Positions 15,451 to 61,856 of a DNA stretch of 63,401 nt are shown here, one piece after another. The stretch is from IMG/VR virus record IMGVR_UViG_3300025154_000092, positions 1 through 63,401 of that record, one strand, 5' to 3'. This stretch comes from a virus. A program made the position numbers and the translations under genes. Each line of letters opens with the position of its first letter. Position 1 is the first letter of the stretch. The notes beneath the pieces were generated by a model that was not told where the DNA came from, ran no database searches, and saw only the letters and a list, made by a program, of their open reading frames with translations.

Positions 15451-16173
15451 ATGCCGAAACGAGTATACGAACTGATGTTCAATCCGGGCGAGGTTGTGGA
15501 GATCCGGGCGATCGGTGGGCTGAAGGGCCGGAATAAGGCCTGGGAAGGGGCGTGTTTCGGGGCGAAGGGCACAGTGTCGGGCTATTTCGATAATGCCGAG
15601 GCGTTCGGCGCCTCGGCGAAGGCCCTGGACGATGCCGGCGCCCACGGGGTCTATTACACCCTGAACCCCTGCCGGCCGGCGCTGATTGCCAGGGCATATA
15701 ACCGGCTGAAGGCCAACATCCATACGACAACCGATGGCGAGATTGAGCTGATACGCTGGCTGCCGATCGATCTGGATCCGCGGCGCCCTACCGGCATTTC
15801 CTCTTCGCAGGCGGAATTGGATGCGGCCGTCTCAACGGCCAAGCTTGTTGCCGAGCACCTGGAGGGTGATCTGAAATGGGCCAGAGGACTGCGAGCCTTC
15901 AGCGGGAACGGCTACCATCTGATGTATCGGCTGCCAGACTACCGGAACAGCGAGGAGTATATCCAGAAAATCAGGGATATCCTCGCCTATCTGTCTGGGA
16001 AGTTCACCAGCGATCGTGTGATCATTGATGAGGTGGTGCATAATCCCGCACGAATTTGGAAGTGCTATGGGACGCACGCACGGAAGGGAGACAGCATACC
16101 GGAGCGACCACATCGCGTGAGTAGGATTCTGTCAAAGGAGCAGAAACTGGCGGATGTGGAAGTGACGGAATGA
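15451..16173 (+). CDS. AEP-type primase (PrimPol-like)
   Basis: A 240-residue catalytic domain of the archaeo-eukaryotic primase superfamily. Motif I is LPIDLDPRRP (Asp-x-Asp, metal binding), motif II is SGNGYHLMYRL (nucleotide-binding His), and motif III is DRVIIDEVVHNPARIWKCYGT with its Asp. 'ARKGD...ERPHR' completes the family ending. It makes primers for replication. Its stop overlaps the helicase start (ATGA, 16170-16173), so primase and helicase work as a split primase-helicase pair. Confidence 0.9.
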   Translation: MPKRVYELMFNPGEVVEIRAIGGLKGRNKAWEGACFGAKGTVSGYFDNAEAFGASAKALDDAGAHGVYYTLNPCRPALIARAYNRLKANIHTTTDGEIELIRWLPIDLDPRRPTGISSSQAELDAAVSTAKLVAEHLEGDLKWARGLRAFSGNGYHLMYRLPDYRNSEEYIQKIRDILAYLSGKFTSDRVIIDEVVHNPARIWKCYGTHARKGDSIPERPHRVSRILSKEQKLADVEVTE

Positions 16174-18050
16174 GCAAAATCGACGAGACCGCAAAGCGTG
16201 CTCCTAAGAAGGAGACGTCACAGGCGCCTGCAGGAAAAGCCCGAGGTGTAGGCAAGGGCAACCTCGGGATGATGGACCTGGGCGCGTACCTGCGGGACCA
16301 CGGGCAGCCATTCCACGAAAAAAAGCTGCGAGACAAAGAGAAAGCCCACCTCACATACTTCGTACTCGAGAACGGGTGACTCTTCGACGAGAATCACCGG
16401 GGCGGTGAAGCGGCAATAGTGCAGTCACCTGAAAAGCCGTTCCTCTTCTACTTCTGCTATCACACCAGTTGCAAGAAGCACACATTCAAGGAAGCGCGGG
16501 CGAAGATCTCCGGCCAGGAGTCGCTGGCCAAGTATTACCCGGGGTATGACCCCAGCAAGCGGAGCAAGAAGCCAGGCACGGAGCTCGGCGCCGTGCTGGC
16601 AAAGTCAAGCATACCTTACCAGATTGAGTTTGAGTGCCTTTCACCCCGCATCCCCCCTCCCCACGAAGTAGACCCGTACACCTTCTTCGAAGAAGGTGCC
16701 AGGGGTACGCTGTCGTTTGTGCCGAAGCGGCTGGCGGATTACATGGCCGTGCTCCTGGGCCCCTTGTACGAGACCCTGGGGACCTGGTGGAGGTATGAAA
16801 ACGGGGTTTACCGGCGGATGGACGTTGGGGAGCTGCAGCACGTGGCGACAGTGGCATTGAGGGACCATGCTCGGCCGAACCAGGTGAACGCGGCCGTGGA
16901 GATTCTGGGGAACCTGGTTCGGCGCAGGCCCTCGGATTGGCCCAAGGAGAAACTCATAAACTGCCTGACGGGTATGTTGAACCCGGAGACGGGAAAGCTT
17001 GAGCCACACAGTCCTGCGTACCTGAGCCGGGTGCAGATAAAGTGCAAATATGACTGGAAGTATTTAGACGCGGCACAGCCGTTTATGGAGTTCCTGGAGG
17101 GGGCCCAGCCTGGAAAGGATAATGAGGCGTGCCGGACCATCCTGCACCGGTTTGGCGGGTATGTGCTGCTGCCTGACAACCGGTATGAGAAGGTGCTGCT
17201 CCTGAAGGGTGAGGGCGGGAATGGCAAAGGGACCTTTATCAACATCCTCAGCATGGTGATTGGAGAGGAGCACGTAAGCGCGTTGTCGCTGCATGACCTG
17301 GGAGAGCGGTTTAACACATACCGGCTGGAAACCTCGATCTTGAATGTTTCGACAGAGGTGAACCCTAAGAAGAGCGTTGAGACCGAGACGCTGAAGCAAG
17401 TGGTTTCCGGTGATCTGATCAAGGGCGAAGAGAAGTTCGGCAAGCAGTTCGAATTCAGGCCTAGGACGAAATGTATCTTCTCTCTGAACAAGAAGCCGAT
17501 CCTTCAGGACGTGGGGTATGCCCTGGAGCGCCGGCTGATTGTTGTGCCGTTTGACACGACATTCGAGGGCAAAACGAAGGTGGAAAGCATCTGGGACAGG
17601 TGCGTGGAAGGTGATGGGCGCCATGGCGTGTTTATGTGGATGGTGCTGGGCCTGGAGGAGCTGCTCAAGAACGGATTTGAGCTGACAGGCAGGGTGAAGA
17701 GCACAACGACGGCATTCCTGCGATCGCTAAACCCGGTGATGATTTTTGTCCAGGACGTATGTCGCCTACGACCTGGGGACAATAAGGTGTTTGTGGGCAC
17801 GGTAGAACTCTACAAGAGGTACGTGCAATGGTGCGGCCACACAAAGCACAAAGAGATGGCCAGGACGAACTTCTGGGACATCATTGAGAGCATTCCGGGA
17901 GTACGGCGGGGGTTGCACCATAAGACAAGGCAGGCGAATTTCTTTGGAATCGAAATTAAGCCTGAAGACCTGGGTGAAGAGGCAGAAGGTTATGATGATC
18001 TTGAGGAGGTCGACCCCTCGACCCCTCAACCCCGTACCCCCTCTTCTTAG
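16170..18050 (+). CDS. Zinc-finger SF3 (D5/P4-type) helicase, interrupted by an in-frame UGA at 16377
   Basis: One open frame of 626 residues if the UGA is read. Before it, 69 residues end in LTYFVLENG. After it come LFDENHRGGEAAIVQ, then FYFCYHTSC, i.e. a (Cys/Sec)-x5-His...Cys-x4-Cys zinc finger whose first ligand is the UGA. Then the D5-N region, Walker A LLKGEGGNGKGTF, a Walker B-type strand (TSILNVSTEV), the SF3 B' and C motifs (FRPRTKCIFSLNKKP) and the arginine-finger region YALERRLIVVPFD. GTG 16419 has no convincing ribosome site and lies inside the conserved finger, so separate translation is unlikely. Alternatives are a nonsense mutation or base error. Confidence 0.88.
16377..16408 (+). 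promoter_or_regulatory. In-frame UGA with SECIS-like hairpin
   Basis: UGA 16377-16379, 14 nt gap, then stem UCACCG (16394-16399) / CGGUGA (16403-16408) with loop GGG. The loop begins 21 nt after the UGA. Bacterial SECIS elements lie just downstream of the UGA with a short stem and a G among the first loop bases. The same geometry recurs at 63265. Confidence 0.6.
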
Positions 18051-18064
18051 TTCGCCTTACTGTT

Positions 18065-18355
18065 ACCTTCACGAAGGTTTGGGCGAAGGGTAAACGAAGG
18101 TTTTGCGAAGGTTTTGCGAGTTGGCAAGTGTCTGAAAACATTAATGAACGAAGGTTGCGAAGGTTTTCAGTGAGGTTAGTCCTTACTATTATGCACATAC
18201 TATCTCCTATTTATTCTCTTTTTGTCACTCCGTGCGAAAGGAGTAGCTCAGAAACCTTCGCAACCTTCGTAGTGGAGGAAGATCAAACACTTAGAAGACA
18301 AAAAACCTTCGTAAAAACCTTCGGGAAACCTTCGGAATGGGGGGTAAAAACCTTC
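18065..18355. other. ori: Putative replication origin: 6 + 6 inverted iterons around an AT-rich core
   Basis: Rightward CGAAGGTTT-type iterons start at 18072, 18084 (variant CGAAGGG), 18095, 18106, 18149 and 18158. Leftward AAACCTTCG-type iterons start at 18252, 18262, 18301, 18312, 18325 and 18345. The 18168-18251 centre is AT-rich with TTATTCTCTTTTTG. It directly follows the helicase gene. Inverted iteron arrays around an unwinding element are typical of initiator-dependent origins. The 18051-18820 stretch holds no convincing gene. Confidence 0.8.
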
Positions 18356-20560: not shown

Positions 20561-20585
20561 GAAGCCGGCTTTGGGGGAGGGGAGA

Positions 20586-21395
20586 ATGGGGAAGGGGAAT
20601 ACGTATTGGGATCGGGCGTGGTCGTTGGTGGATGGGTGCACGAAGTGTTCGCCTGGGTGTTTAAACTGCTGGAGTGAGGAGATTTATGGGCGGTTTCATG
20701 AGGACGGGCTGATTTCGCCGGAGAAGAAGTGGACGGGGCAGATACTGACTCGAAGCAGCAGGCTCGATATTCCCAGGATTGCCAACAAGTCAACCGTGTT
20801 CGCGGTTTGGAATGACTTGGCTCATGAGGCCGTCCCGGATGTGTTCAGAGCACTGGCCTATGCGGTGATGCAGGAATGCAGGCGCCATACTTATCTCGTG
20901 CTCACGAAGCGGATTCACGAGTTGGGCTATTCACTGCGGGCCAACCTTTCCCCGCTCCGCACTAGACCCTTCGGGATCTTTCCCGGTGTGACCGTTTGCA
21001 CACAGGAGGAGGCGGATAAGAACATCCCGGAGCTGCTGAGGCTGAAGGAGTTTTTCCCGTGGATGAGGGTATGGGTGAGTCTGGAGCCGATACTCGAGGA
21101 GATAAGCCTCTTGCGGTGGATACCCATACCTTCATGTTCTCCGTCCACTGCCGGAATCAACGCCGTGATCATCGGAGGTGAATCGGGTTCTCCGAGAAAA
21201 GTGCGGCCAATTAGAGAATACTGGTTTGAGAAGACCGTGAATGACTGCCGGGCTTCACTGGTACCGGTCTTTGTGAAGCAGATGGGGACCTCGTGGGCCA
21301 TGAGGAACGGTGTCTGGAAGCTTGGTGACCACCAGGGGGCGGATATGCAGTATTGGCCGGAATCTTTGAGAGTGAGGGAGCTGATATGGAGATAG
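20586..21395 (+). CDS. DUF5131 (phage Gp37/Gp68) family protein
   Basis: A 269-residue protein. The N-terminus 'TYWDRAWSLVDGCTKCSPG' continues CLNCWSE, giving the family's Cys cluster (C-x2-C-x3-C-x2-C). 'TVFAVWNDLAHEAVPD', VLTKRI, VTVCTQEEAD, RVWVSLEPIL and VIIGGESG follow in the usual order. The fold is TIM-barrel-like with a metal or iron-sulfur site. Its reaction is not established to my knowledge. Common in phages and mobile islands. ATG 20586 follows GGGGGAGGGGAG. Confidence 0.9.
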   Translation: MGKGNTYWDRAWSLVDGCTKCSPGCLNCWSEEIYGRFHEDGLISPEKKWTGQILTRSSRLDIPRIANKSTVFAVWNDLAHEAVPDVFRALAYAVMQECRRHTYLVLTKRIHELGYSLRANLSPLRTRPFGIFPGVTVCTQEEADKNIPELLRLKEFFPWMRVWVSLEPILEEISLLRWIPIPSCSPSTAGINAVIIGGESGSPRKVRPIREYWFEKTVNDCRASLVPVFVKQMGTSWAMRNGVWKLGDHQGADMQYWPESLRVRELIWR

Positions 21396-23470: not shown

Positions 23471-23590
23471 GCGGTTACGCCCCCGACAGCGGCTATTTTT
23501 GTCGGAAGGTCATTTTTGCGTGAGACTCCCCGTGTCCGTGAGGTCGGGGGCGCTTCCTTGTAAGCGTTCAGAGGTCTCACGCTTTTTTTG
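23471..23590 (+). ncRNA. C4-type antisense RNA/attenuator leader
   Basis: Two complementary pairs are interleaved: A1 CGCCCCCGAC (23478-23487) with A2 GTCGGGGGCG (23543-23552), and B1 GCGTGAGAC (23518-23526) with B2 GTCTCACGC (23574-23582), which is followed by a T7 run. Order A1-B1-A2-B2 makes the pairings mutually exclusive. A1 can also fold locally (CCGAC/GTCGG around AGCGGCTATTTTT). This matches the C4 antisense RNA of P1/P7-type antirepressor operons, where processed C4 pairs with the ant leader to stop expression. Confidence 0.8.
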
Positions 23591-23630
23591 TTGTGTTACA
23601 AAATCTGAAACCTACAAGGAGGACAACAAG

Positions 23631-24779
23631 ATGGAAATGGAGTTGGTTCGTGTAACAAAGCGTGCATTAGGAGGAAATACCATCCAAACTGTCAACGCGC
23701 GAGAGTTGTACGAGTTCTTGGAATCAAAACAGGAATTTGCTAATTGGATCAAAGGCAGGGTCGAGGAGTACGGTTATACCGAAGGAGAGGAGTTTTTGAC
23801 AATTTTATCAAAAACCCCGTCTGACGCGGGTGGCAGGCCTTCCAGGGAGTATTTCATCTCCCTCGACATGGCCAAGGAGTTGGCCATGGTGGAGCGGACG
23901 GAGAAAGGGAGGCAGGCCAGGAAGTATTTCATTGAGTGTGAGCGGCGGTTGCGGGAGATGACGAGCGAGCTGCGGGCGCTGCCTGCGCCTGCCGGGACGG
24001 CGATGCAGGAGGGGATTCAGCGCGGGATCGGGTTGATGATGGCGGCAGGCAGGTATTCGCTGAAGGTGGCCGACCTGGAGAAATACTTTTACTTCCGCAA
24101 GCTTGGTCTGGACACGGCACAGGCGGAGGCTGCCTTCGGGATGGCTCCAGGCGCGGCGGCTGCCTTCGAGCAGGAGCTTGGCCATGCGGGCATCCGGATC
24201 CGTCCGGACCGAAAGGGACTGGAGGCCGTCGCGGGCCGGTTGGCGGAGATGGTGGCGGGCGAAGAGGTGTCTTTGAAGCAGCTGCCGGTTTCCGACGCTC
24301 TTTCGGATTTCGGTGGCGAGATCTGCCTCCTGGACAGAGCGGCGGCGATCAGGACCCTGGTGCTTTACGCCAAGTACAGGGACTGGGCCATTGAAAACCA
24401 CCGCTATCTGCTGGGGTTCAATGATTTCAGGCGCGAACTCACCTCGCGTTTCCCGGTAACAAAGCAAAGCGCTTACGGGAAAGAGCGGCGGGCGCACTTT
24501 CTTGGAATTACACTCAAAAACCCCCAACCGGCAGGCACGATCGAGGAGTTCGTGGAGAAGTGCTGCGTTCTCGACCCAAGGGCCAGCGTTCTAACCAGGG
24601 ATCTTTACATTGCGTTCAGGAACTGGTGTTATTCCAAGGGCGGCGGGCATATCGGCCGCCAGCTCTTCTTCAAGAGCATGGAAAGCAAATACGCCGGCAG
24701 GATAGCGGTAAAGAAGGCGGCCCGTAAAATGAGCTTTTTCGGAATCACCCTGAAGGGCGAGGGAGGTGAGCGGCTATGA
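23631..24779 (+). CDS. AntA/AntB-type antirepressor with tandem wHTH domains
   Basis: A 382-residue protein from ATG 23631 (AAGGAGG). Residues about 14-100 are an AntA domain (VNARELYEFLESKQEFANWI, EYFISLDMAKELAMVER, KGRQARKYFIECER). The C-terminal half has two copies of a ~75-residue unit: 'LVLYAKYRDWAIENHRYLL...AHFLGITLK' and 'RDLYIAFRNWCYSKGGGHI...MSFFGITLK'. These resemble the winged helix at the end of D5/P4 primases. It likely inactivates the repressor. Ends with ATGA overlap. Confidence 0.85.
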   Translation: MEMELVRVTKRALGGNTIQTVNARELYEFLESKQEFANWIKGRVEEYGYTEGEEFLTILSKTPSDAGGRPSREYFISLDMAKELAMVERTEKGRQARKYFIECERRLREMTSELRALPAPAGTAMQEGIQRGIGLMMAAGRYSLKVADLEKYFYFRKLGLDTAQAEAAFGMAPGAAAAFEQELGHAGIRIRPDRKGLEAVAGRLAEMVAGEEVSLKQLPVSDALSDFGGEICLLDRAAAIRTLVLYAKYRDWAIENHRYLLGFNDFRRELTSRFPVTKQSAYGKERRAHFLGITLKNPQPAGTIEEFVEKCCVLDPRASVLTRDLYIAFRNWCYSKGGGHIGRQLFFKSMESKYAGRIAVKKAARKMSFFGITLKGEGGERL

Positions 24780-25457: not shown

Positions 25458-26105
25458 ATGGGGAAGAAAGAGCCGTACATCGACAAACACAACCTGGGAG
25501 AGCGGGTGCTCGGGTTGTCGTTTGGGGGGATGACGGACACCAGGATTGCCGAGCAGCTCACTTCCGAAGGACACAAGATCTCACAACCCACCGTTACCCG
25601 ATGGCTCCAGGCAAAGCGTGAAGAGATGGGACCCCAGGTGAGGGGCATCATGCAGGATCACCTGCAGAGGAAGCTCCCCAGGGACTTGGAAGTCCTCGAG
25701 GAGATGGAGGTGATCACCTTCGATTGGGCCAAGGAAGAGAAACCGGCCCTGGTCGAACGGCTGATGGATCCGGCCTGGTGCGCTGCTGCGTATCTGCGAT
25801 GGAAGGCGTCGATCGTCGAGGCCAAAGAGGAAGAGCAGCAAGGGGTGATGCGGCTGATTCTCAAGGAGGCCATGGGCAGGGTCACAGAATTTTTCAATGT
25901 GCGCCGCGAAAAGCTCAATTTCATGAAGAGCACCCGGGACGATATAGCGCTGAAACTCCAGTATTCCGGCGTGATCGAGGGGGCGGAGAAGGGGAATATT
26001 TATATCGTCACGAGCAAGAAAGAGCAGGGACCGCAGGGACAAAAGGGCGGGGAGAGTAAGCCGAGGCTGCAGATGGTGCTGAAGGGGCCGAAAGATGCCA
26101 AGTGA
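25458..26105 (+). CDS. terS: Terminase small subunit-like protein
   Basis: A 215-residue protein. Residues about 12-50 read as a helix-turn-helix (GERVLGLSFGGMTDTRIAEQ and KISQPTVTRWLQ). A helical middle and a basic tail (KKEQGPQGQKGG) follow. It sits directly before the large subunit, overlapping by 11 nt, so packaging-site recognition is inferred from position and HTH. The tail sequence itself is Gln/Gly rich. Confidence 0.75.
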   Translation: MGKKEPYIDKHNLGERVLGLSFGGMTDTRIAEQLTSEGHKISQPTVTRWLQAKREEMGPQVRGIMQDHLQRKLPRDLEVLEEMEVITFDWAKEEKPALVERLMDPAWCAAAYLRWKASIVEAKEEEQQGVMRLILKEAMGRVTEFFNVRREKLNFMKSTRDDIALKLQYSGVIEGAEKGNIYIVTSKKEQGPQGQKGGESKPRLQMVLKGPKDAK

Positions 26106-27570
26106 TCTTAGATTCGACCTGAGCCCCACGCAAACGGATTTTGTTTTGTCCGAGGCCCATATCGTGCAGTTGATCGGGCCGATGGGTGAGGGAAAGACCC
26201 ATGCGGGGATTGCCGGTATGATCTACCATGCCCAACGAAACGGCAAGCCTATAGAGACTGCCCTCATTCGGGATACCTTTCAGAATATCAAGACTTCCAC
26301 CAGCAAGGATATTGCGAAGATCTGCGGCGAGTGGGCGCGTTTTACAGATGGCGGCAGGCGGTTGACGCTGATGACGACCCCAAGGGTGCACTGCGATCTC
26401 TTCGGGATAGATTCGGAGGCCGATATCAGCAAGCTGCAGGGGCCGCAGTATTCGCTGATCTGGCTCGAAGAGCCGGCGCCGATTTACGAGAAAAGCAATG
26501 CCGGGCTTCCTATCGGGGTGTTTCGCATGGCTTTGGCCAGGGCTGCGCGGCAATCGGGCGGCATGATTCCGCGGGTGCAGCTTTCGCACAACCCGTCGGA
26601 CGAAGATCACTGGACGGCGGAGCTCGCCGACGAACCCCATGAATATGTGTCGATTTACGATGAGAACAGCGGGCAATGGGTGACTGTGTACAAGGATATC
26701 TTCCGTATCCCCAGGGGCGAAAACAAGTTTCTCTCGCCCATAGCCCGTGCCATGAACGAGGCGGCGTTCAAAGGAGATCCCGGCAAGTACGCACGGTATG
26801 TGCTCGGCGAAGAGGCGATGGTCGTGCAGGGCAGGAGGGTGACCCCTGCCTATGATCAGCGGGTTCATTTCTCGGAAAGGATTCTGCCGGTGCTCAAGGG
26901 CGAAGCGATCATGATGTGGGATTCGTGGCTGGATGCGACCTGCACCATTGCGCAATACAACCCGCTCGGCCAGCTCGTGTTTCACGACGTGCTCCACGAA
27001 GAGGGACTAGGACCGGAGGAGATCATCGAGGAGAAGGTGCTGCCGCTTCTCGAAACCCCCAAATACAAGGGCAAGGTGAAGGTCGAAGGGCCGTGGCGGA
27101 TCATCGGGGACCAGAGCATGAGAAACCCGGACCAGTCGAGCAACAAGCGGAGCGCTGCAAGTCTCATTGAAGGGGTGTTTAAGGCCCGGTTCGAGCCGGG
27201 GCCTGCCCACTGGCATCGTATGCGGAACATCCCCAACCAGTGCTGCCGGGCGAGGACGCCGCACGGTTTGCCGTTGATCCTGCTCTCCAGGTCGGCGACA
27301 AAGCTTCACCGGGCCCTGAAGGGCGGCTGGCACTACAAGGTGGACGTAAGCGGCCACATTCTGGGGGATAAGCCGGAGAAAAACATTCACAGTCACCCGG
27401 GGGACACTTTTGCCAACGGGCTGGCGGTGCTGCATCCGCAGAAGCCGGACGAGCAACGGCCTCCGGTGGATCAGCGGGCGGCGCAGAAGCTGGCCAGGAG
27501 CTACGGGGGCGGGAATTTCAGTAGAAGGTTTGCGGCGGCCGGCGGGATTTCGGGGCCGTTTAATCCGTGA
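26095..27570 (+). CDS. terL: Terminase large subunit
   Basis: A 491-residue packaging motor. Walker A IGPMGEGKTHAG at about residues 27-38, Walker B SLIWLEEPAP (catalytic Glu) at about 120-129, 'QLSHNPSDEDHWTAE' resembling the coupling motif, then the nuclease domain with acidic residues (MMWDSWLDATC, IIGDQSMRNPDQSS, HPGDTFANGLAV). The length is typical of the family. Followed by small genes and the portal. Confidence 0.93.
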   Translation: MPSDLRFDLSPTQTDFVLSEAHIVQLIGPMGEGKTHAGIAGMIYHAQRNGKPIETALIRDTFQNIKTSTSKDIAKICGEWARFTDGGRRLTLMTTPRVHCDLFGIDSEADISKLQGPQYSLIWLEEPAPIYEKSNAGLPIGVFRMALARAARQSGGMIPRVQLSHNPSDEDHWTAELADEPHEYVSIYDENSGQWVTVYKDIFRIPRGENKFLSPIARAMNEAAFKGDPGKYARYVLGEEAMVVQGRRVTPAYDQRVHFSERILPVLKGEAIMMWDSWLDATCTIAQYNPLGQLVFHDVLHEEGLGPEEIIEEKVLPLLETPKYKGKVKVEGPWRIIGDQSMRNPDQSSNKRSAASLIEGVFKARFEPGPAHWHRMRNIPNQCCRARTPHGLPLILLSRSATKLHRALKGGWHYKVDVSGHILGDKPEKNIHSHPGDTFANGLAVLHPQKPDEQRPPVDQRAAQKLARSYGGGNFSRRFAAAGGISGPFNP

Positions 27571-46001: not shown

Positions 46002-46081
46002 AGGGTTTCCGCCGCGGAGTGAGCAGGCGCATATATTCCTGAGCGGAGTGTGCGCCTATTTTGTTACACGGGGATCTACAC

Positions 46082-49000
46082 ATGTTCAAAAGCCTAGAAG
46101 AATTCGACCGCTGGGTAGAGGAAGGCAGGCAGGAGGAAATCAGTAAGCGGGCGGCTATGTCGAAACCGCGCGGGGTGCTCAAAGAGGCTGCATCGGCCCT
46201 GGGGGCCGGTGTGGTGAGCACGGGGGAATCGATTGCCGGCGCCGGTGAGATGATCGGGATCCCCGGGGCGAGAGGCGCCAGGGAATACCTCCAGGAGGTG
46301 GGCGAGGCGGAATCTCTGGCCAGGCCTGAGGATCTACAGGAGGGCACCATTGTCGAGCATCCGGAACGGTTGGCGGATTGGCGATGGTGGGTGAGGTCCC
46401 TGGGGGAGAACATCCCGAACATGGCGGCCATGATGTTGCCGGGCGGGCTCGCGTGGAAAGGGGCCAAGGCGGCCGGCTGGGGGTACAAAGCGATCAAGAC
46501 CGCGGCGCTGAGCGGGGCGTTCTCAGGGGCTGCAACGGTGGAGGCGGGCGCCGCTTACACCCAGGCCAAGAAAGAGATGGATGAGTTCGGGTATGCCGAT
46601 GACGTGATAGAGCGCGTGGCCACTGCCGAAGGGCTGATTGTGGGGACTGCAAACGGCATTCTGGAGATGCTGCCGTTCGACAACCTCTTTCTGCGGTCTA
46701 CCGGCGCTTCCGGCATTATTCGCAGGATTGTGCGGCAGGCGGTTTTCGAGGGGTCGACCGAGATGGCCCAAGAGACGGTGAGCCTGGCTGTGGAGCAGTG
46801 GGGGCACCAGCCGGATGTGGAGCTGAAGACCGCGATAGGCCGGGTGCTGGAATCCGGGATTATAGGCGGGGTGCTCGGCGGCGGGGCAGGTGCGGTATTT
46901 CAGAGGACAGAGGACAGAGGACAGAGGACAGAAAAAGAAAAAGATCAACCCATATCCACGACGGGGCAGGAGACGACCCGGGTTGGTTTGGCGGAGATCG
47001 CCGCGGCCGAAGAGGAGCGCAAGGAGAAGGCTCGCCGGGTGGAGAAGGCCAAGGCCGATGCGCCGGCGGCGCTGGCGGAGATCCTGAAGGAAGAAGAGGA
47101 GAGTAGAGCGGAAGTGGTGGCTGCGAAGGCCATTGCGGAGATCGAAGGGACCAAAGGGACGGCAGGGACCGAAGAAGCGGAGGGTGTGGATGAAGGTGCA
47201 CAAGAAGGACGGGTGGCACGTGTACTCGGAGAAGAAGAACCCGTTGACGGGGAAGCGGCGGCATCTGGGGGGCCCGTACCCGGCGGAGAGCCAGGCGAAC
47301 GAGAGGTTGCGGCAGGTGGAGGCGGCGAAGGGGAAAAAGTAGAAACGGAGAAACGGGGAAGCGGAGAAACGGAGATCAAGGAGAAGATCGATGCGGCGGC
47401 CAATGAAGCGGCCACATCCCCGAAGAACGATTTGCCTGAACCCACCGAAGAGCAGAAGGAGAAAGAAAACTACAAGATGGGGCATCCTGACCCTAAGCTG
47501 CTGCATGGGTTGGATATCTCCATAGAGAACCCCAAAGGCTCCATTCGCAAAGGCAAGAGCAAGGCCGGCGTGGAATGGCAAACGAAGATGCAGGCGCACT
47601 ATGGTCACATAAACGGGACCGAAGGCGCGGACAGCAGCAAAAAGCTGCGGCAAGGAGTTGACGTCTTCATAGGAGAAACCCCTGAAAGTGAAATGGTGTT
47701 CATTGTCAACCAGGTGAGCCCTGATACCGGCAAGTTCGACGAACACAAGGCCATGCTCAATTACCCCAGCGAAGAAGACGCCCGTAAGGGCTACCTGGGC
47801 AACTATGAAAAGGGATGGAAGGGACTCGGATCCATTGTGCCCATGAAAATGGATGAGTTCAAGACCTGGCTCAAGGAAGGGGACACGACAAAGGAGGCAA
47901 AAGGGACACGAGGGACCAAAGGGACGGAAGGGGAGAAAGGACGGGCGGCGGAAGCGAAGACAGAGCCCACAGCGAAAGAAAAGGCTGTGTCGCAGGGGGT
48001 AGCAAGCATCACGGGGGGAAAGCCCACGGCCGCGGCGCCTGCAGAGGCAAAGGGCAAGAAGGAAGAGCCAACCCCGGCAGAGACGAAGAAAGCAGGAGAG
48101 TACGGGGTTCCTATTCCGCAGGCTTGGAGTAGGCCTACGACCGGAGCAGAAAAGAAATTTGCCAACTACAAGGGTTTTGCATCGTCTGATGAAGGCGGAT
48201 ACCTGTCCGTCGAGGCTTGGGGGGAGACGCAATCCGACGCGGAAAATAATGCACGTAAAGAATTTGAACGCCAATGGTTCAACCGGGATCAATGGAGAAA
48301 AAAGGAGAGCCCGGAGCTCAAAGCCTCAGAAGCAAGCGCAGATGATCTCCTCGCCGAGTGGGATAAGCAGGCGGCGGAGATGGAGGAACCGAAAGAACTA
48401 CGCATAAGTCAGAAGGAACTCGCTGTGCTGCGATCACGGCTGAAGATAGCACAAGAACGCGGCGCGATGGTCGCAGGCATTGAAGTGGATATCCGGCGAT
48501 ATGAGGAGAGCCCAAAGACTTCCGATCTTGATTACAGGGCAACCCTCAATGAACTGAATCAGCGGATCGCTGAGCAAGAGAAGCACGAAAAGGAAGTCAA
48601 GGCGAAGGAACAACTACCCTCCTGGGCGGCGAAGAAGGTTGGAGAGAACCGGGCCGACATTGCCCTTTATGAGGACAAGGACGGCAACCGGGTATTTCTG
48701 GACAAAGGCTTTGTGACGAGCGCTCCTCGCCCTTTAGTCTCCGGCGGCCAGGTCCTGAAGCCTTATAATCCGGAGCAGCTTTACAAGGCTGGGCGGAAAG
48801 AGTTTCTCACCAAGGAAGAGCTGGAGAAGTTCAAGGCCGAGGGAAAACCTGTTTCTGCAGGAGTGGCCAGCATAACGGGGAAGAAGCAGGAAGCGGAAGC
48901 TAAAGCGGCGGAAAAGAAGGAGTTCAAGGAAGGTGATTTTGTCGTACCGAACTCTGAAAGCGGGCTTGGGATCACTTATCGCGGCAGGATCACAAAGACT

Positions 49001-52000
49001 GAGCAAAGGTCAGATGGCCAGTATGTGAAGATTTTTGGAGCCCTCCAGTTTCAGAGATCGGAAAACTTTAAGCTCCAATCCGAGGTGGAAGAGGAAGAGA
49101 AAAAAGGGGCAAAATTCAAGAAGGGCGATCGGGTGGTGATCACCGGTTATGGAGAAGCGGAGCCGCGGCATGGGGAGATAAGCGATGTGCGCGGGTGGGC
49201 GTTTCGTCCGCTCTTCGGGGCTGGTGGGCAGTCTGCGACGGAATACGACTATGACGTGAAGACCGACCAGGGCGCTACGTGGCATGGGAATGATCAGAGG
49301 ATCGTGAAAGAGACCGAGCGGCCGGAGAAGGTTGTCCCAGACATCCTTCGGGGTAATACCTATATGGAGCCTGACTATGTTCTCCGTTCGATTGCGAGTA
49401 ATAGAAGAACGGCAAAGGAGAACAGAGCATCGGCGGGCAGGGCAAAGAAGGCCAGCAGGATCAGTGGGTACAGGAGACAGGCGGCAGAAGCGGACCAAGC
49501 TGCCGATGATCTGCAGGCGGCCTTCGATGAATGGGCGAAGAAATACCCGGAGGAGGCGGCGAAGTACCGGAAGACAGAAGGCGGAGGACAGAGGACGGCA
49601 ACCGAAAAGACAGTTGCGGGGGCAACGGAGACCCTCCGGGATTACGGCATCGATGCAACGAAGACCACGACCAAGAACGGGAAGCCGGTTTGGGAAGTCT
49701 CCGGGAATACGAAGCCCTATGCCGAAGAGATGAAGAAGGCGGGCGGGCGATGGTATGGGCCGAAGAAGGTGTGGTCTTTTTATGGGGAGGAGGATCCTAC
49801 TGCCCGGATCCTGGAGGCGCTGCCGAAGAAGGAAGGGACCCAAGGGACGGCAGAGACGAAAGGAATACCTAACCGCGGAGTGGCCAGCATCACGGGGAAG
49901 AAGCCGGAAGTGCCGGCCGAGACAGAGAAGCCTCAAACCCAAGAGGAAATGCTGGCCGCGGTGAGCGACTTCTTCAAGGGGGACAGGCCTGTTGTCTCCT
50001 GGACATTTAAGCAGTCCCTCGAGGAGTTTAACCGCAAGACGGTTGAAAGCCTTTCCTATGTGGGGAAACTCGTTTCAAGGGAAGAGCTGGCCAATGGCTG
50101 GGTGAAGGTGACCTATGAAAAGGTCGGTGAAAAACCTGTAACTCCCCAGGTGCCCACGGCCGGCGAGAAGGCACGCGAGACGGTTGACCATGTTAAGAAC
50201 GCTGTTGACAAGTTTAAAGCAATAAATAAGATATTGGGTGAGAAGGGTTCTCTCGGCGGACCGGTGGAGCAGGGGAAATACGACCTGATCCGGCCGCTCC
50301 TCAAGGAAGCATGGGATGAAATTGTTGCAGCCGGGAAATCGGCCAAGGAGTTTGTCCAGCTCGCTCTTCAAAACCTCTCACCCAAAGGCAGACCCTATTT
50401 CGAAAAGTTTGTCAGAGAGGAGATAAGCCATGCAAAGCCTGAGCCTGCAGGAACTGAAGAAGCAGAAGCCGAGCGACATCCAGATCGAGAGGCCGTGGGA
50501 AGAGCCGGAGTGGGAGGCGCACCTGCAGTACCTCCTGAACTACCACCCGGCAGCGACCTGGGAACTGTTTCAGAACGACCGGCCGGAGCTGGAGAAGAGG
50601 CTGAAACAGGCGGTGCAGAAGGGGGTGTATTACCGGGTGCTGTACCGGCTGGAGGGGAAACTGGAGCCGGACCAGATCGAGGAGAAGGTGCTCAACCTGG
50701 TGGCCCCAAGCGAGGAGCAACCAAAAGAGCCCCTTCCGGAAGAGCAGGAAAACCTCGTGCTCGCCTGGAGCCGCAATCTGCAGAGTTAGCCGAAGCCAAC
50801 CAGAACCACCGGATTGAGCCGGACGACGAGCTCGTGCCCCGCGGGGACGAGAAACGGATACAGGCGAACATCCGGGCCATAAAGCTTGTCAAGCAGCTCA
50901 TATCCGAAGAGCGAAACCCCACCAAAGCGGAAAAGAAGATCCTCGCCCAATACGTGGGCTGGGGAAAGTTTTCCGAGCGCATATTCAACAAGGAATTCGA
51001 CCGCTATGTGAGGGAGTACCGAGGGAAGACCCATACGGTGTGGGCGCCCTATGGCCAATCCGCAGAGAAGGAATATACCCCTGAGGATTTCTTCGGCAGA
51101 TACGGGGAAGAGAACGAGCGTAAGATAGAGGCTTACAAGAAGTGGGAGACAAAGTACGGCAAGGAGCTCCATCCTTTGCTCGGCGGCATGTTGACCGAAG
51201 AGGAGTGGAAGGCGGCCGAGGCCTCCACCCTGAATGCCCACTATACCAGCCGGCAGATCATCTCCTCGATGTGGGACCTGGCAGAACGGCTTGGATTCAA
51301 GAAGGGAACGGTACTCGAGCCGGCTGCCGGCGTGGGGCATTTCTTCGGGCTCATGCCGGAGAGTGTTGCCGCGGGATCGAAACTCATCGGCGTGGAGCTC
51401 GATACCATTTCGGGCGCCATTCTCTCCAAACTCTACCCTCAGGCGGATATCCGTGTAAAAGGCTTTGAGGAAAGCAACATCCCTGACAATTCCGTGGATC
51501 TCGTGATCACCAATGTCCCGTTCGGTCGCTGGGGCATATTCGATGCCAGGCATCCCGATTACTCCAACTGGTCCATTCACGACTACTTTCTTGCCCGATC
51601 GATCGATACGGCGCGGCCCGGCGGCCTGGTGATAGCGATCACCTCGCACTGGACCATGGACAAGGTTACGGGCGGAGAGAAGCGGGAATACTTTGCCAGG
51701 AAGGCCGATCTTGTCGGCGCAATCCGGCTGCCGAATACCGCTTTCCAGGAGAACGCCGGCACGGAGGTTGTGACCGACATCCTGGTGTTCCGGAAGAAGG
51801 ACAACTCATTCCGGCCGGAGATCCTGCCTTTTCGAAGCATCAAGAGCGTGCCCGTACCTGAAGGAAAGGATAAAAGCGCGGATGTAAACGAATACTTCGC
51901 CGATCATCCCGAGATGGTTCTCGGCAGACACTCCCTTTCGGGCACCATGCGGAGAGGCGGGGACGATGAATACACCCTGCTTCCGGACCCTGCAAAGCCC

Positions 52001-55000
52001 CTGGATCAAGGCATGAGGGATGCCATAAGCGCACTGCCCGAGAACATCCACGGGTATGTGGAAAAGACGGCGGAGCAACCCATTTTCTTTGCCTCTGAAG
52101 GGGCAAAGGATGGGGTGCTGTACGAAAAGGACGGCAAGCTCTACATGGTGGAAGACGGTAAATATGTTCAACCCACCTACCACAACAGCGCCGGCAAGCT
52201 GGTCCATCTGAGCGATGCGCAGATAGCGCGTGCCCGGCGATACCTGGAGCTGAAAGCGGCAACAAAGGCCCTGATCAACAAGATGAATCAGGACGAGGCT
52301 ACCGACGAGGAGATCAAGGAGCTCCAGGGGAACCTGAACGATGTGTACGACAGGTTCGTCAAGGAGTTCAACTACCTCAATCATCAGAGCAACGGCTTTC
52401 TCCGGTTGATCGACGGGGAATTCCCGATCACCGATGCCCTGGAGCAGATCGAGCAGGTTATTGAAAAGGATGAAAAGGGGCAGTCGCGGTACCGCAAGGT
52501 GTTTCACAAGATCGGGATGTTCTTCAAGAGAACGATTTTCCCCTTCAAGGAACCCGAGGCGGCGGAAAGCGTGGAGGATGGCGTCAATCTCTCCCTCATA
52601 TACCGCGGGAATATCGATCTGCATTACATTGCCAAGGTGACCGGCAAGGATCAGGACGGGGTTAGAAAGGAGATCCTGGAGAGCGGTGCTGCCTACCTGA
52701 ACCCGGTAAGCGGACTCCTGGAGGCCTCGGATGAATACCTCTCCGGCAATGTGGTGCGCAAACTGCGCGAGGCCGAGGCGGCTGTAAAGGAAAATAAAGA
52801 CTTTGAAAAGAACGTGAAGGCCCTCAAAGGTGTTCAGCCGAAATTCATCGACATCGAGCAGGCGCATTTCCGGTTGGGAACACCCTGGATCCCCACAGAA
52901 TCCGTTGAAGGCTTTCTCGAGGAAAGCCTGGGTGTGGAGGCTAAGGTAGAGCTCGTAAGGACGAAGGAGTTCACGAGGTTTCATGTCAGGATAACGAACG
53001 ACAGGTATAGCACGAAAAACGAAAAGACATGGGGGGTTTCCTGGAAACAGAAATCGCACGAGCAGGAAGATGAAGAAAAGGCGACGGGATCGGTGCGGAC
53101 GCTTCTTGGAACCGATTTGATCGAGGACGCGCTGAACCTCAAGATTGCAGAGGCCACGGATACGATCGACGTGGGGGACAGGAAGAGCATCCAGCGAAAG
53201 AACAAGAATGCGAGCATCGCCGCACAGGACAAACAGAATGAGATCCAGGACGCTTTCAGGACCTGGGCCCGGGGACACAAGAAATGGGCTTCGGAGTATG
53301 CGAAGCTTTTCAACGAAAACGAGAATCAGTACAAGGTGCGGGAATTTCCCGTTCCGACGATCACGCATTTCCCCAATGCCTCGCAGGATATCACCCTGCG
53401 CGACGAGCAGAAACGTGCGGTCATGCGCGGGCTGCGCGAATCCGCGCTGTTCGCTTACGGCGTGGGGACCGGCAAGACCTATATCATCATTACGACCGCC
53501 ATGGAGATGCGGCGGATAGGCACGGCCCGAAAGCCCTGCATTGTGGTTCAGAATTCCACCCTGGGGCAGTATGCCTCTTCTTTCAGGCGCCTTTATCCGG
53601 GTGCAACCGTTCTCATCCCGAACGAGAAACAGCGATCGGCAAAGCAGAGAAACCGCTTGATGATGCAGATTGCCCAGAACGATTGGGATGCAATCATTAT
53701 CCCCAAGAGTTTTGCCAATATGATCGCCGACGATCCGGCCCGGGAGCAGGCATACGTCCAGGAACAAATCGACATGATGGAAGAAGCCCGGTGGGCTGCC
53801 GAGCAGGAGGAAGGAAAAAACTCGTTCAAGGTAAAGGACCTCAATGCTGCAATAAGAGCCAAGGAGCAGCACCTGAAGAAACTCCTTGCCCGGCACAAAG
53901 ACAATGTGCTCACGTTCGAGCAGTTGGGCATAGATGCGCTCATTATCGATGAGGCGCACGATTACAAGCGCTCGGACTTCTTTACGAAGATGGACAAGGT
54001 TCGCGGCATCGATCGGGGATCGTCACAGCGCAGCGCTTCGATCTATCTCAAGATCAGGCACGTACAGGAGAAGACGGGCGGTAAAAACGTGATACTTGCG
54101 ACCGGAACCCCCATCAGCAACACGATGGCGGAGCTCTGGACCATGCTCAGGTATGTGCGGCCGGACATCCTTGATGAGTTTAACAGCGGGCTCTTCGATG
54201 ATTTCGCCGGCAACTTCGGCGAGGTGGAAATCAGGACCGAGGAGACGGCGGTCGGGACCTTCAAGGATATACAGCGTTTCTCGAAGTATGTGAACGGCCG
54301 TGCCTTGCTCACTATGTGGCGTGCTGCGACGGATGTGCTGCTTACCAAACATGCCGGCCTGGATCTACCCGCGGTAAAGGGCGGGAAACCGGAGATGATC
54401 AAGGTTGCACGCTCAAAGGACCTGCGGGTGTTCATGAGGGACCTGAGGGAAACGTACCGGGCGTGGGAGAATCTTTCGGGGAAGGAAAAACGGCTTAACA
54501 GGCACGTGCCCATTGTACTTTATGGCCTTGCAAAAAAGGCATCTGTGGATTTGCGGCTTGTCAACCCCATTGCGTACGGCGACGACCCGGAGAGCAAGCT
54601 CAACACGGTTGTGAAAACCGTTCACGATGTGTGGAAGAAGAGCACGCCGGAGAGCTCCACCCAGCTTGTATTCCTGGATATTTATCACGACAGCGAAAGA
54701 AAGTTCGATGCCCACGAGGACATAAAACAGAAACTCATCAAGCTGGGGATCCCGGAAGAGGAGATCGCCGTCGTCGAGCAGGTAAAGGGCGATGCCCGGA
54801 CCGAGGCCATGTGGCAGAAGGTGAGGGAAGGGAAGATCCGCGTGGCGATCGGCCACAGGGAAAAGCTCGGCGTGGGGGTGGATGTGCCTCAAAAGCTGAT
54901 CGCCGTGCACCATGTGGATCCACCTCAGAGGCCGATGGACTACGAGCAGAGCAACGGCCGGATTGTGCGGCAGGGAAACGAGAACCCGGAGGTGATGATA

Positions 55001-58000
55001 TTCAACTACGGCGTCGAAAAGACCCTGGACAGCGTTTTGTTTGACAGGCTGGCCATGAAGCAGTTCTTCATCGACCAGGTGCTTACAGGGCAGATCGAGG
55101 GGGATACCTTTGACGACCCTTTCACCGAAGAGCAGATGAATTTTTCCGCCATGCAGGCGGCGCTCATCGGGGATCCGGCGATCAATGAAAAGGTGGAGGT
55201 GGACGCAAAGTACAAGAAGCTGAAGATCGCCAAGCGTACCCACGAGCAGAGGCAATCGGATGCACGCTATAACATCAGGAGCCTTGAAGAGGATAAAATA
55301 CCGCGTAGAGAAGGGGAAGTTGCGACATACAGGAAGGAAGCCGAGGCGGTAAAGGCAGCCAGGGCGGATGCAAAGTTCTGGAAGGAGGTCACGCTTCCCG
55401 ATGGAAAGGCGGTTTCGCGGAAAGAGGCGCTTGAATGGGCGCAGGCGCAATGGGAGGCTTTTGGGAAGGAGACGAAAGATCGGGCAGCCAAGATCACGGT
55501 AAAAGACTGGAATGTGCTCCTCGAGGCGCACAAGTGGAGAGAAGCCATTCCGGAGTGGACGCAGGCGATAAAGATCGGGCACGGCTTTGTGGTGAATTTC
55601 GAGTCTGACGTTGAGTTTGTTACAACGGATATTGAACGGAACAAGCTCAAAAATAAGGACACGGTAAGGCCGATAATTGATCTGAGATGGAAGCTCAGCC
55701 ACGATGATTTCGGGGTGATGACGGTTTCGAGGCAAATTGTGGCGCCGTCCTCCGTGCAGCAGGCGATAGGGGCGGCGCTGGATGCGCCTGCCGAGCACCT
55801 TGCTTACCTGGAGCGGAACCTTCAGAAAGACAAAGAATCCCTTGCCGAATACAAAGAGATCGCCAAGGAGACCTTCGACAAAGAAGAGGAGTTGGCGGCC
55901 ACAGGGAAGCGGCAGCGTGAGCTCGAAGACTACTTGAGAACGAAGGTCATCGAGGAGGAGGATGAAGACCTGCGGGACGTGGAGGGCAGCGCCCAGGGGA
56001 TACTTGACAACATCCTGAGGGACGCGGATGAAGAGACAACCGGAGCCGCGGCGGCGCCGGAGGAGGAGGAAGAAGCGGCGGCGGCAAAGGAAAGAGCGGC
56101 GATTGATATAACACTGAAAAAGGGGGAAAGACTCTACTATTTTAACAAAGACGGCACGTTTTACCCGGTTGCGGGCCGGCCGGTCGATGTGGTGCCTTAT
56201 GGTGAATTCTTTGTTCACAAGGAAGGGAAATCCGATGTCTGGGAAGTCAGGGAAGTGCGGTCCGGTTTCAAGTGCGGCCAGGGGAACAGCATTGAAGAAG
56301 CCGTAAATATGGCCATATCGCAGTTCGAGCGCGTAGGAGAAGAAAAGGGCAAGCAGCTCATCGATGAGGCGGTGGAGGAGTCCGGCGAGTCTCCGGCTGT
56401 GAAGCAGGAGCAGTACAGCGTAGCGGGCCGGGAACGGGCCAGGGCACGGAAGCAGGTTACGCCGGCGGTGACGATCGATGATGTTCGGAAGATCTTCAAG
56501 GGGCAGCCGGTTGTGCTCACTCCTGAGGGGGAGATCAAGGTTTTCCCTCGAGAGCATAGGAGTGTGACCATCAAGTCGGTGGAGCAGATTACACCGAATA
56601 GCGTTGCCCTGAACATTGCCTATGGTGTGGAAAAGGTAAAGGGCGAAATTGCAGGGAAATACAAGGATGGCGAGATCTCGCTGCAGCGGGACGTGTCGGA
56701 CAAGTGGACGCTGACCCATGAGAGCTATCACTTCATGGAGGATGCCGGCATTGTCTCGCATGCCGACGTGGGGATCCTGAGGGCGAAGATCAGGAGCCTG
56801 GAGAATAAGGGCAAATGGACACCGGTAAACCCCAAAGACATTGGAGGCGGCGAGGACCGGGCGGCCTGGGTGACCGAGCAGCTCAAGGGGATTTACGACG
56901 TAAAGACGCTCACAGGGCAGATCCTGCAGAAGATCCGGCAGTTCATCGACCGTGTGATGGCGGCCTTCGGGATCCGGACGGCCGGCGCGGTGACCAGGGA
57001 TATTGAGACGGGAAGAGTGTTTGAGGGCAGAGGACAGAGGACAGAGGACGTAGGACAGCAAAAAGATCTTTTTGAAGTAAAGGTGTCCCCTACTGCCGGG
57101 CAGGCTAGTGCCGTGTTTCTGGGGTATCAGGAGACAGGCAGGGGAGGGAAGATTGCCCTTTTCAACATCGAGGGCGGAGAGCGCGACGGGAGCACGGTTT
57201 CGGCGGATACGCTCAAGGAGTTGGGGATTGACGTGCCTGAGGTCTCGGAAGAGCAGGAGTGGTATGCCATTGCAAAGCAGCCTCCGGGAAAGATTGTGGC
57301 GCAGGAGATCGAGCAGAACCGTTCGTTCGTGAACAAGATCTTTGAGCTTAGAGACGTGGCGAAGCTCAGAATCCAGAACCAGGTGTCGGAGCTGCAGCGG
57401 GAAGTGCAGAAGATGGCCGGCAAGGCCAGCAGGCGAAAGTTTACCCTGGGCTTTGCGCACAACAAGGAGCTCAAGCGTAGCATGGCATCGGATCAGCTCG
57501 ACCGGGCCATGATGGTTTACCGGGACCTGCAGACGAAACCTGAAAAGGCCGATGAGTTCAAGACCTGGGCCGAACAAAAACTGAAAGACAAGGACACTTC
57601 GGCAAAGGACAGGCTCACGATCAAAGGCCAATTGACACTGCTGGACCAGGCTCTTAACCTCACGCAGGAGCAAAAGGACTTTGCCATGGCCAAGTTGGGC
57701 GAGCTCTTCGAGAAGGCATTTGAGCTTGCCAAACGGACCAAGATCATCCAGACGCACAGGGACAATTACGTGCGGCGGTTGTGGAACCTGCCTGAAGGGA
57801 AAGAAGAGCAGTTTACCGGGTCCGGATCCGGGTACGGCTTTTCGGTGTACACCACTGCGGCCAAGAAGAGGACCCTGCCGACGATCCTCGACGGCTGGAT
57901 GGCGGGGTATGACCTCAAGGTAAAGGGGCTCACGAACAGCTACGAGAAGTACCTTACCGAGCTTGCGACCATCATTGCCAACAAGGCCTTCATCCAGAGG

Positions 58001-60203: not shown

Positions 60204-61856
60204 ATGATCATCGGTTTGATTGGGGCGATTTGTGCGGCGGGGTTCAATGTGCTCATAGGGTATTGGGTGCTGGAGCCGTACACGACGCCCAGGATGCTTT
60301 TTATATCCATTGCGGGGTTCGGTTTGCTGGCGGCATGGCTGATCTCGGGGCCCGTGCTCCATATCTCCGTGCCCGCGGCGCAGGCGGCGCTTGTGTTGCT
60401 GGGTGTATGGGTGTTCTGCTCATTCATGGCCATTCGGAGGGACATTGCTCTCAGACATTTTGTGACTTTTGGCTTTTGCGTTTTCTTCGGGCTTTTCCTT
60501 GTGCCGGCCGCGGATCCTGTTGCCGTAATCGAGATGCTTGTGGGCGTGGCGACGGTAAGCGCGGTGATCGGGTTGCTGGCGAACCTGGGGAATGTGCAGG
60601 TCTTCCCGAAGATCCGGCCGCGAAAGCACCGCGAGGTTTCCGGCATGGTGGGGAATGCCAATGCGCATGGGGCGTACCTGGCAATTCATGCCTTTCTCGC
60701 CGGCTACCTGGCCCTGTACCAGCATCCGCTTTGGGCTGCTTCGCTCGTTATTATCCTGATCGCCATATGGCGTGCGCGTGGTCTTGGTCCCGTTGTCGGG
60801 CTGCTGGCCGGCGGGCTGTTTATGACATTGGCGCTGGATCGATCCATCCTGATCCGGGTTGCTCTGTTCAACGGCATTTTCTTTTTCGCCTGGTGGTTGG
60901 TTGAACACATGAGGAGCAACCCCAGGGTGAGCATCCGGGAGCGGCGGCACTATTGGCGGGTGGCGTGGGAGATGTTTGCCGAATCGCCGCTCTGGGGCAC
61001 AGGCTTTGCCAGCTTCCCGATCCGCGTGCCGTTTATTCAGCGTGCGCTGAACGATTCGACCAGGGGCGAATTCCTGAAAAAGGAGAACTACGCGGCGTCC
61101 TGGCCGGAGCTTGCGCATAACGATTTTCTGCAGGCGCTTACGGACAACGGCACTATGGGCATGGCTGCGTTGATTGTGATGGGCGTGCTCTGTGGTGATG
61201 CCGTTATCTCGGGTATTCGGGATCCTCTCGTGGTGTTTGCAGGCGCTGCCCTGGTGTCGTTTCTTGCCTCGGGGCTTACCTGGCATTTGTTCTATGTGCT
61301 GCCTGCCAATATGACCGTGTGGTGTTTGGTGGGCATGCTGCTGAAGACATCGGCGCCCTGGAGCGTGGATGTGGGGCCTTACTGGAGTTTTCTGGCGCTC
61401 GTGCCTCTGGGGAGCATCATCTGGATGTATGTGGTACGGCATGCGGCCTTTCTGGTGCACATGCTGCGGTATTTTAAGGGCGGCGATGTGGATTACCTGA
61501 AGAGGGCGCTTCGCCTCGAGCCCCACAGCACCTTTGCAAACCAGCATGCCGTGCTTTACTGCTGGCGTCACGGCCAATATGAGACGGCCTACACGCATGC
61601 CATTACGGCCCTGCAGCACTACGACGGGAATCAGCAGATTTGGCGGCTATGGACAAGTTTGGGGAATATATGCCGGCAGCACGGATCGCTTACGCTTGCG
61701 AACGCGGCCTTCAACGAAGCGCTGAAGTTTTTGCCCTGGTTCGACCTGGCGCTGATAGGCCGCGAGCAGCTCAAGGAAACCGTTGTGCGCATAAGAGCTG
61801 TAACAAAGGACTTGGCCGGGAATGAAGGAGAAGAAGAACAAGGAGGAAGAAAATGA
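60204..61856 (+). CDS. O-antigen ligase/polymerase-like membrane protein with TPR-like tail
   Basis: A 550-residue polytopic protein with about ten hydrophobic segments. The large periplasmic loop contains WGTGFASFPIRV and 'ELAHNDFLQALTDNGTMGM', the HNDxLQ...GxxG signature of the Wzy/WaaL family. After the last membrane helix, about 110 residues look TPR-like (RALRLEPHSTFANQHAVLY, ALQHYDGNQQIWRLWTSLG). It would change or ligate surface polysaccharide, a classic serotype-converting cargo. Followed by ATGA overlap. Confidence 0.82.
   Translation: MIIGLIGAICAAGFNVLIGYWVLEPYTTPRMLFISIAGFGLLAAWLISGPVLHISVPAAQAALVLLGVWVFCSFMAIRRDIALRHFVTFGFCVFFGLFLVPAADPVAVIEMLVGVATVSAVIGLLANLGNVQVFPKIRPRKHREVSGMVGNANAHGAYLAIHAFLAGYLALYQHPLWAASLVIILIAIWRARGLGPVVGLLAGGLFMTLALDRSILIRVALFNGIFFFAWWLVEHMRSNPRVSIRERRHYWRVAWEMFAESPLWGTGFASFPIRVPFIQRALNDSTRGEFLKKENYAASWPELAHNDFLQALTDNGTMGMAALIVMGVLCGDAVISGIRDPLVVFAGAALVSFLASGLTWHLFYVLPANMTVWCLVGMLLKTSAPWSVDVGPYWSFLALVPLGSIIWMYVVRHAAFLVHMLRYFKGGDVDYLKRALRLEPHSTFANQHAVLYCWRHGQYETAYTHAITALQHYDGNQQIWRLWTSLGNICRQHGSLTLANAAFNEALKFLPWFDLALIGREQLKETVVRIRAVTKDLAGNEGEEEQGGRK

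Follow-up and report, generated by a model that had tools for sequence, protein, structure and literature searches.

We identified a phage gene that very probably encodes a selenoprotein: a zinc-finger and D5/P4-type superfamily 3 (SF3) primase-helicase in which an in-frame UGA codon is predicted to be decoded as selenocysteine (Sec). The gene lies at positions 16170-18050 of a 63,401-base virus record (IMG/VR record IMGVR_UViG_3300025154_000092), the whole of which we call the window. From the ATG at 16170 to a TAG at 18048-18050 the frame is open, and its sole internal stop is the TGA at 16377-16379. An earlier note, made from the sequence alone, had placed the gene at these coordinates, read the frame as open on both sides of the UGA, and given the residues that follow it as LFDENHRGGEAAIVQ, then FCYHTSC; coordinates and residues proved correct, and the open reading frame (ORF) analysis bore out the frame. 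The same note proposed that the UGA stands where D5/P4-type primase-helicases are expected to have a zinc-binding cysteine, a claim to which we return below.

The assignment of the protein to the P4-like primase-helicases is supported by curated scores and by fold. Read through the UGA, the 626-residue protein reaches 155.7 bits against TIGR01613 (P4-family phage/plasmid primase C-terminal domain), whose curated cut-off is 108.7; all of the scores obtained for this model (155.7, 175.4 and 219.6 bits) exceed that value. The protein also matches PF08706 (D5_N), PF19263 (DUF5906) and several PHROG primases, and in a fold comparison the best structural match of its model is the SaPI5 primase-helicase (7ola). 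The gene immediately upstream (15451-16173) encodes a product that we call archaeo-eukaryotic-primase-like by motif only, as Pfam gave no match and a structure search gave no close solved structure. Homologues of this product form the N-terminal part of single ORFs in two relatives (L008 and L010) and are encoded by the gene preceding the helicase homologue L004. Because its homologue is fused to the helicase in L008 and L010, we assign the two window genes to one functional unit. Just 3' of the helicase gene, positions 18071-18313 contain a repeat that reads ACGAAGGTTT/GCGAAGGTTT in its direct copies and AAACCTTCGCAA in its inverted ones, including a 19-nucleotide (nt) perfect inverted repeat with copies 85 nt apart; these repeats look like the iterons of a replication origin.

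To place the UGA within the family we compared homologues of the helicase. A direct DNA search of phage records gave no match to the window and a protein scan for close relatives found none, so relatives were reached through a terminase-like gene (26095-27567) and through degenerate DNA patterns. In a relative phage found through the terminase-like gene, the homologous protein is ~36-38% identical and its codon in precisely the UGA column is TGC; LLKECVFDPNHS of the nearest Cys relative aligns with VLENG(UGA)LFDENHR of the window. The motif given in the note thus held up: the column is Cys in this nearest relative, in a ten-row alignment (C70) and in 21 homologues, which come from viral contigs and from genomes of deltaproteobacteria and in some cases resemble the window protein over the zinc finger alone, and the alignments contain either Cys or UGA at this position. 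As in bacterial selenoproteins, then, a single in-frame UGA, with the frame open on both sides, faces the Cys of at least two homologues.

The surrounding domain (16251-16550) matches no named Pfam family model, so that its residues are the sole ground for calling it a zinc finger. C/U70, H76, C96, H98 and C101 are invariant in 8- and 10-row family alignments, and they supply the candidate ligands, four Cys/His residues arranged as two knuckles, that a CHC2/zinc-ribbon finger should have. The structure model of the window protein has a mean predicted local distance difference test score (pLDDT) of 61.8, with the zinc finger mostly at ~77-89, and that of L008 has a pLDDT of 51; such models are reliable only locally, and we claim no ligand geometry from them. 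In two phage ORFs (L014 and L015) the Cys form of the finger matches the query over the finger alone, and both are far outliers in the tree, so that the finger may move as a module.

The UGA itself is conserved. Among 2.9 million viral contigs, a degenerate DNA pattern in which codons for the zinc-finger residues follow UGA picked out a 60,110-base phage contig (L008) whose helicase homologue has TGA at the same codon in an otherwise intact frame. The two helicases share 37% protein identity, the L008 version is fused to its primase-like domain in one ORF of 856 codons, and the two phages have many structural genes in common. A genome scan found TGA again in a third copy (L033; 89% protein and 82% DNA identity to the window gene), located in the metagenome-assembled genome (MAG) Deltaproteobacteria bacterium HGW-Deltaproteobacteria-15. 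Because the UGA is kept across this divergence while the rest of the frame stays open, it is not a sequencing error or a fresh nonsense mutation, in agreement with the earlier note's view that a plain nonsense mutation was not the explanation. Published practice looks for at least two different UGA-containing sequences plus Cys homologues (PMC1088965), and window, L008 and L033 supply the former, the 21 Cys genes the latter. A maximum-likelihood tree unites window, L008 and L033 in a single clade with support 99/97, within which window and L008 are 2.33 substitutions/site apart; the tree program warned that long branches meet at this clade, making a single origin less certain than the support suggests. 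A stretch of 117 nt around the UGA (16313-16429, + strand) is 100% identical between window and L033, compared with ~82% for the gene overall, and downstream of it 98 of 270 codons differ silently. This identity reflects either recent recombination or a constraint that extends 5' of the UGA; on that side L008 shows no conservation.

Immediately downstream of the UGA, all three copies carry a hairpin resembling a selenocysteine insertion sequence (SECIS), UCACCG-GGG-CGGUGA, with its loop 20 nt past the UGA. The longest exact run in the codon alignment of window and L008 is 20 nt long, GAGAATCACCGGGGCGGTGA. Where the two proteins have identical residues, 83 of 208 codons (~40%) agree over the gene as a whole versus 6/6 in the hairpin block (P ~0.004 given the residues). 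The UGA genes all have H-R-G-G-E as the residues that the hairpin encodes, whereas Cys genes vary at this place (SPYE, KQE, GKKD, KGKE, GPWQ, GKNE, etc.), and the UGA-type hairpin is absent from all Cys homologues compared. Silent-site conservation of this kind is the trace that a coding-region SECIS would be expected to leave. A model of bacterial SECIS (bSECIS) elements specifies a loop of 3-9 nt, a stem of 4-16 base pairs (bp), G in the first two loop positions and a spacing of 16-37 nt (PMC13188914), and the window hairpin (6 bp, GGG, 20 nt) has each of these features. Because the hairpin alone is not unusually stable, the evidence for it is conservation and not folding energy.

The lineage that carries the L033 copy is equipped to read such a signal. 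The MAG in which it resides (G007) encodes a tRNA-Sec with a UCA anticodon and a full-length SelB, and its FdhA and SelD genes, like those of its relatives, contain an in-frame TGA. FdhA and SelD of this lineage have a bSECIS hairpin at the place where the phage gene has its SECIS-like one, immediately downstream of the UGA. The FdhA element has the loop GGUCU at 18 nt, and in 15 of 17 SelD genes the 3-nt loop (GGA, GGC or AGA; mostly GGA) stands at exactly the 20 nt of the phage hairpin, the remaining 2/17 having GGG at 17 nt. The SelD stems measure 5-7 bp, and in stem, loop and spacing the phage hairpin is close to the host SelD SECIS type. Core energies of the SelD hairpins lie between -4.6 and -9.9 kcal/mol.

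How else might these genes be read? One account would make them two genes, with the UGA a true stop and the helicase restarting by translational coupling. A GTG, the first possible downstream start, does lie 14 codons past the UGA of the window (16419), the position at which the earlier note had considered independent initiation. A restart there, however, would separate the first ligand pair of the zinc finger from the second, and the residues beside the UGA are still conserved. L008 has no counterpart of this start: its first lies 53 codons past the UGA, beyond the last ligand, and yet UGA and hairpin are kept. We consider re-initiation highly improbable. If the UGA were instead a Cys codon altered by nonsense mutation or pseudogene decay, or misread in sequencing, one substitution (TGC/TGT to TGA) would suffice, and the L033 copy is indeed a decayed remnant; against this stand an identical UGA in three separate assemblies, one of them 37% identical, genes in window and L008 that are otherwise intact over 626 and 856 codons, and a hairpin conserved at silent sites, which together leave this the least credible of the alternatives.

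The remaining alternative is that the UGA is read without selenium, by general suppression or reassignment (to Trp, Cys or Gly) or by hairpin-stimulated programmed read-through. A hairpin 3' of a stop codon can stimulate read-through, and DNA cannot reveal the identity of the inserted residue. UGA is nonetheless a normal stop in this phage, terminating 13 of its 24 predicted genes, among them the gene just upstream, whose stop lies in the ATGA overlap at 16170-16173, and no tRNA gene was found in the window. Homologues have Cys in this column, the hairpin has a spacing, stem and loop like those of the SelD SECIS, and UGA is read as Sec in the carrier lineage; a Cys column combined with a SelD-type SECIS is left unexplained by non-Sec read-through. 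Of the earlier note's two proposals, Sec is therefore supported, while Cys or Trp by general suppression is disfavoured by the use of UGA as a stop; we regard a reading without selenium as very unlikely. The same stop usage led us to reject genome-wide UGA reassignment of the code 4 type.

Several observations weigh against decoding of the UGA as Sec. The hairpin core stands at -6.5 kcal/mol, where the published limit is <= -7.5 kcal/mol (PMC13188914 model), and only its flanks bring it to -7.7 in the window and -10.3 in L008; its folding is not unusually stable (z = 0.4), and hairpins of the same quality accompany ~7% of codons in the window's genes. The UGA is confined to one clade with two distant lineages, and L033 is a decayed prophage remnant with frameshifts that has lost most of its primase gene, its UGA region being intact. 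Wider searches added little: in viral contigs, patterns combining TGAC, TGAG or TGAT with the full zinc-finger signature matched, besides L008, only sequences that do not encode this helicase; among genomes, 395 from the phylum and 85 from the order or class, only Cys forms and L033 came up; plasmid records contained no further UGA homologue and phage records only weak matches. tRNA-Sec and SelB are documented for one carrier, the MAG that holds the 89% copy. A selenocysteine acting as a structural zinc ligand would also be chemically unusual.

If the UGA is decoded as Sec, as appears to hold for this group of deltaproteobacterial viruses, the following mechanism can be proposed. On infection of a Sec-decoding deltaproteobacterium, host SelB-GTP-Sec-tRNA(Sec), recruited by the mRNA hairpin at 16394-16408, would decode the UGA at 16377. 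The zinc finger lies between the primase-like part and the helicase; in it, Sec70 would stand in for Cys as first ligand and may bind zinc together with H76, C96 and C101. Termination at the UGA would leave the window phage with a 69-residue stub and L008 with a primase-like part that has no helicase, so full-length helicase, and hence phage replication, would arise only when the host supplies Sec. The UGA may serve regulation as a gate, or Sec may be no more than a replacement for Cys that is tolerated or favoured on redox grounds. That Sec is a natural zinc ligand in this primase-helicase and its UGA a selenium gate coupling replication to the selenium and redox state of the host is possible, though we hold it to be rather doubtful. 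Coordinates are collected in Table 1.

Table 1. Features of the primase-helicase locus, in window positions.
Feature	Position	Strand	Basis or remarks
Upstream primase-like protein, 240 aa	15451..16173	+	ORF; DLDP and SGNGYH motifs; stop TGA overlaps next ATG
Zinc-finger and D5/P4-type SF3 primase-helicase; predicted selenoprotein	16170..18050	+	626 codons, one in-frame UGA
Zinc-finger domain	16251..16550	+	Invariant columns (8- and 10-row alignments); predicted beta strands
UGA predicted to encode selenocysteine (Sec70)	16377..16379	+	Cys column; UGA kept in L008 and L033
Candidate zinc ligands	U70 16377-16379, H76 16395-16397, C96 16455-16457, H98 16461-16463, C101 16470-16472	+	
SECIS-like hairpin UCACCG-GGG-CGGUGA	16394..16408	+	Loop 16400-16402, 20 nt after UGA
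GTG, first possible downstream start (re-initiation)	16419..16421	+	No counterpart in L008

Elsewhere in the window, a tblastx comparison with relatives gave no other in-frame UGA/Cys pair that was evident among the matches listed. The C-terminus of an AntA-type antirepressor (23499-24779; also L021, G002:2615-2878) matches the helicase's C-terminal Pox_D5 domain, and the L008 phage likewise contains a second stretch resembling the helicase C-terminus. An ORF of 4669 aa (46061-60070) encodes a giant multi-domain protein with inorganic-pyrophosphatase and SNF2-type helicase matches, and its first 500 residues match DarB-like antirestriction and virion-RNA-polymerase-like proteins. The phage genome also carries an O-antigen ligase (Wzy_C) with TPR repeats (60204-61856) and a DUF5131 protein (20571-21395).

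Most bacterial selenoproteins known so far are cellular redox enzymes. Viruses of animals also encode a selenoprotein, the poxvirus glutathione peroxidase; this is a captured host enzyme with a eukaryotic SECIS in the 3' untranslated region, and it is neither a replication protein nor of phage origin. FdhA and SelD are host metabolic genes, whereas the phage gene encodes a replication protein with Sec at a predicted zinc-ligand position. P4-family primase-helicases (TIGR01613, PF08706, SaPI5 7ola) are alike in their helicase part, by curated score and fold, but the homologues found here have Cys at the UGA position and, unlike the window gene, no in-frame UGA. A parallel in proposed function comes from SaoB, SaoC and UXX-star, in which Sec is likewise suggested to be a metal ligand and not a redox catalyst (PMC13188914); these proteins are cellular, linked to heavy metals and without a role in replication, unlike the phage helicase. 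A full-text search of the open-access literature found no phage selenoprotein and no Sec-containing primase or replication protein, and the words phage, virus, primase and helicase are absent from a 2026 review of the prokaryotic selenoproteome (PMC13188914). Sec insertion is thus a known mechanism and the helicase a known family; as far as could be found, their combination is new.

Phage gene callers can be expected to split such genes, since standard rules turn each UGA copy into a product that ends early and a helicase shortened at its N-terminus. If the reading proposed here is true, genetic-code expansion would reach phage DNA replication, with Sec encoded in a protein central to that process. 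Phage growth would then depend on the selenium supply of the host, and nature would have provided a case in which Sec can be tested as a structural ligand of zinc.
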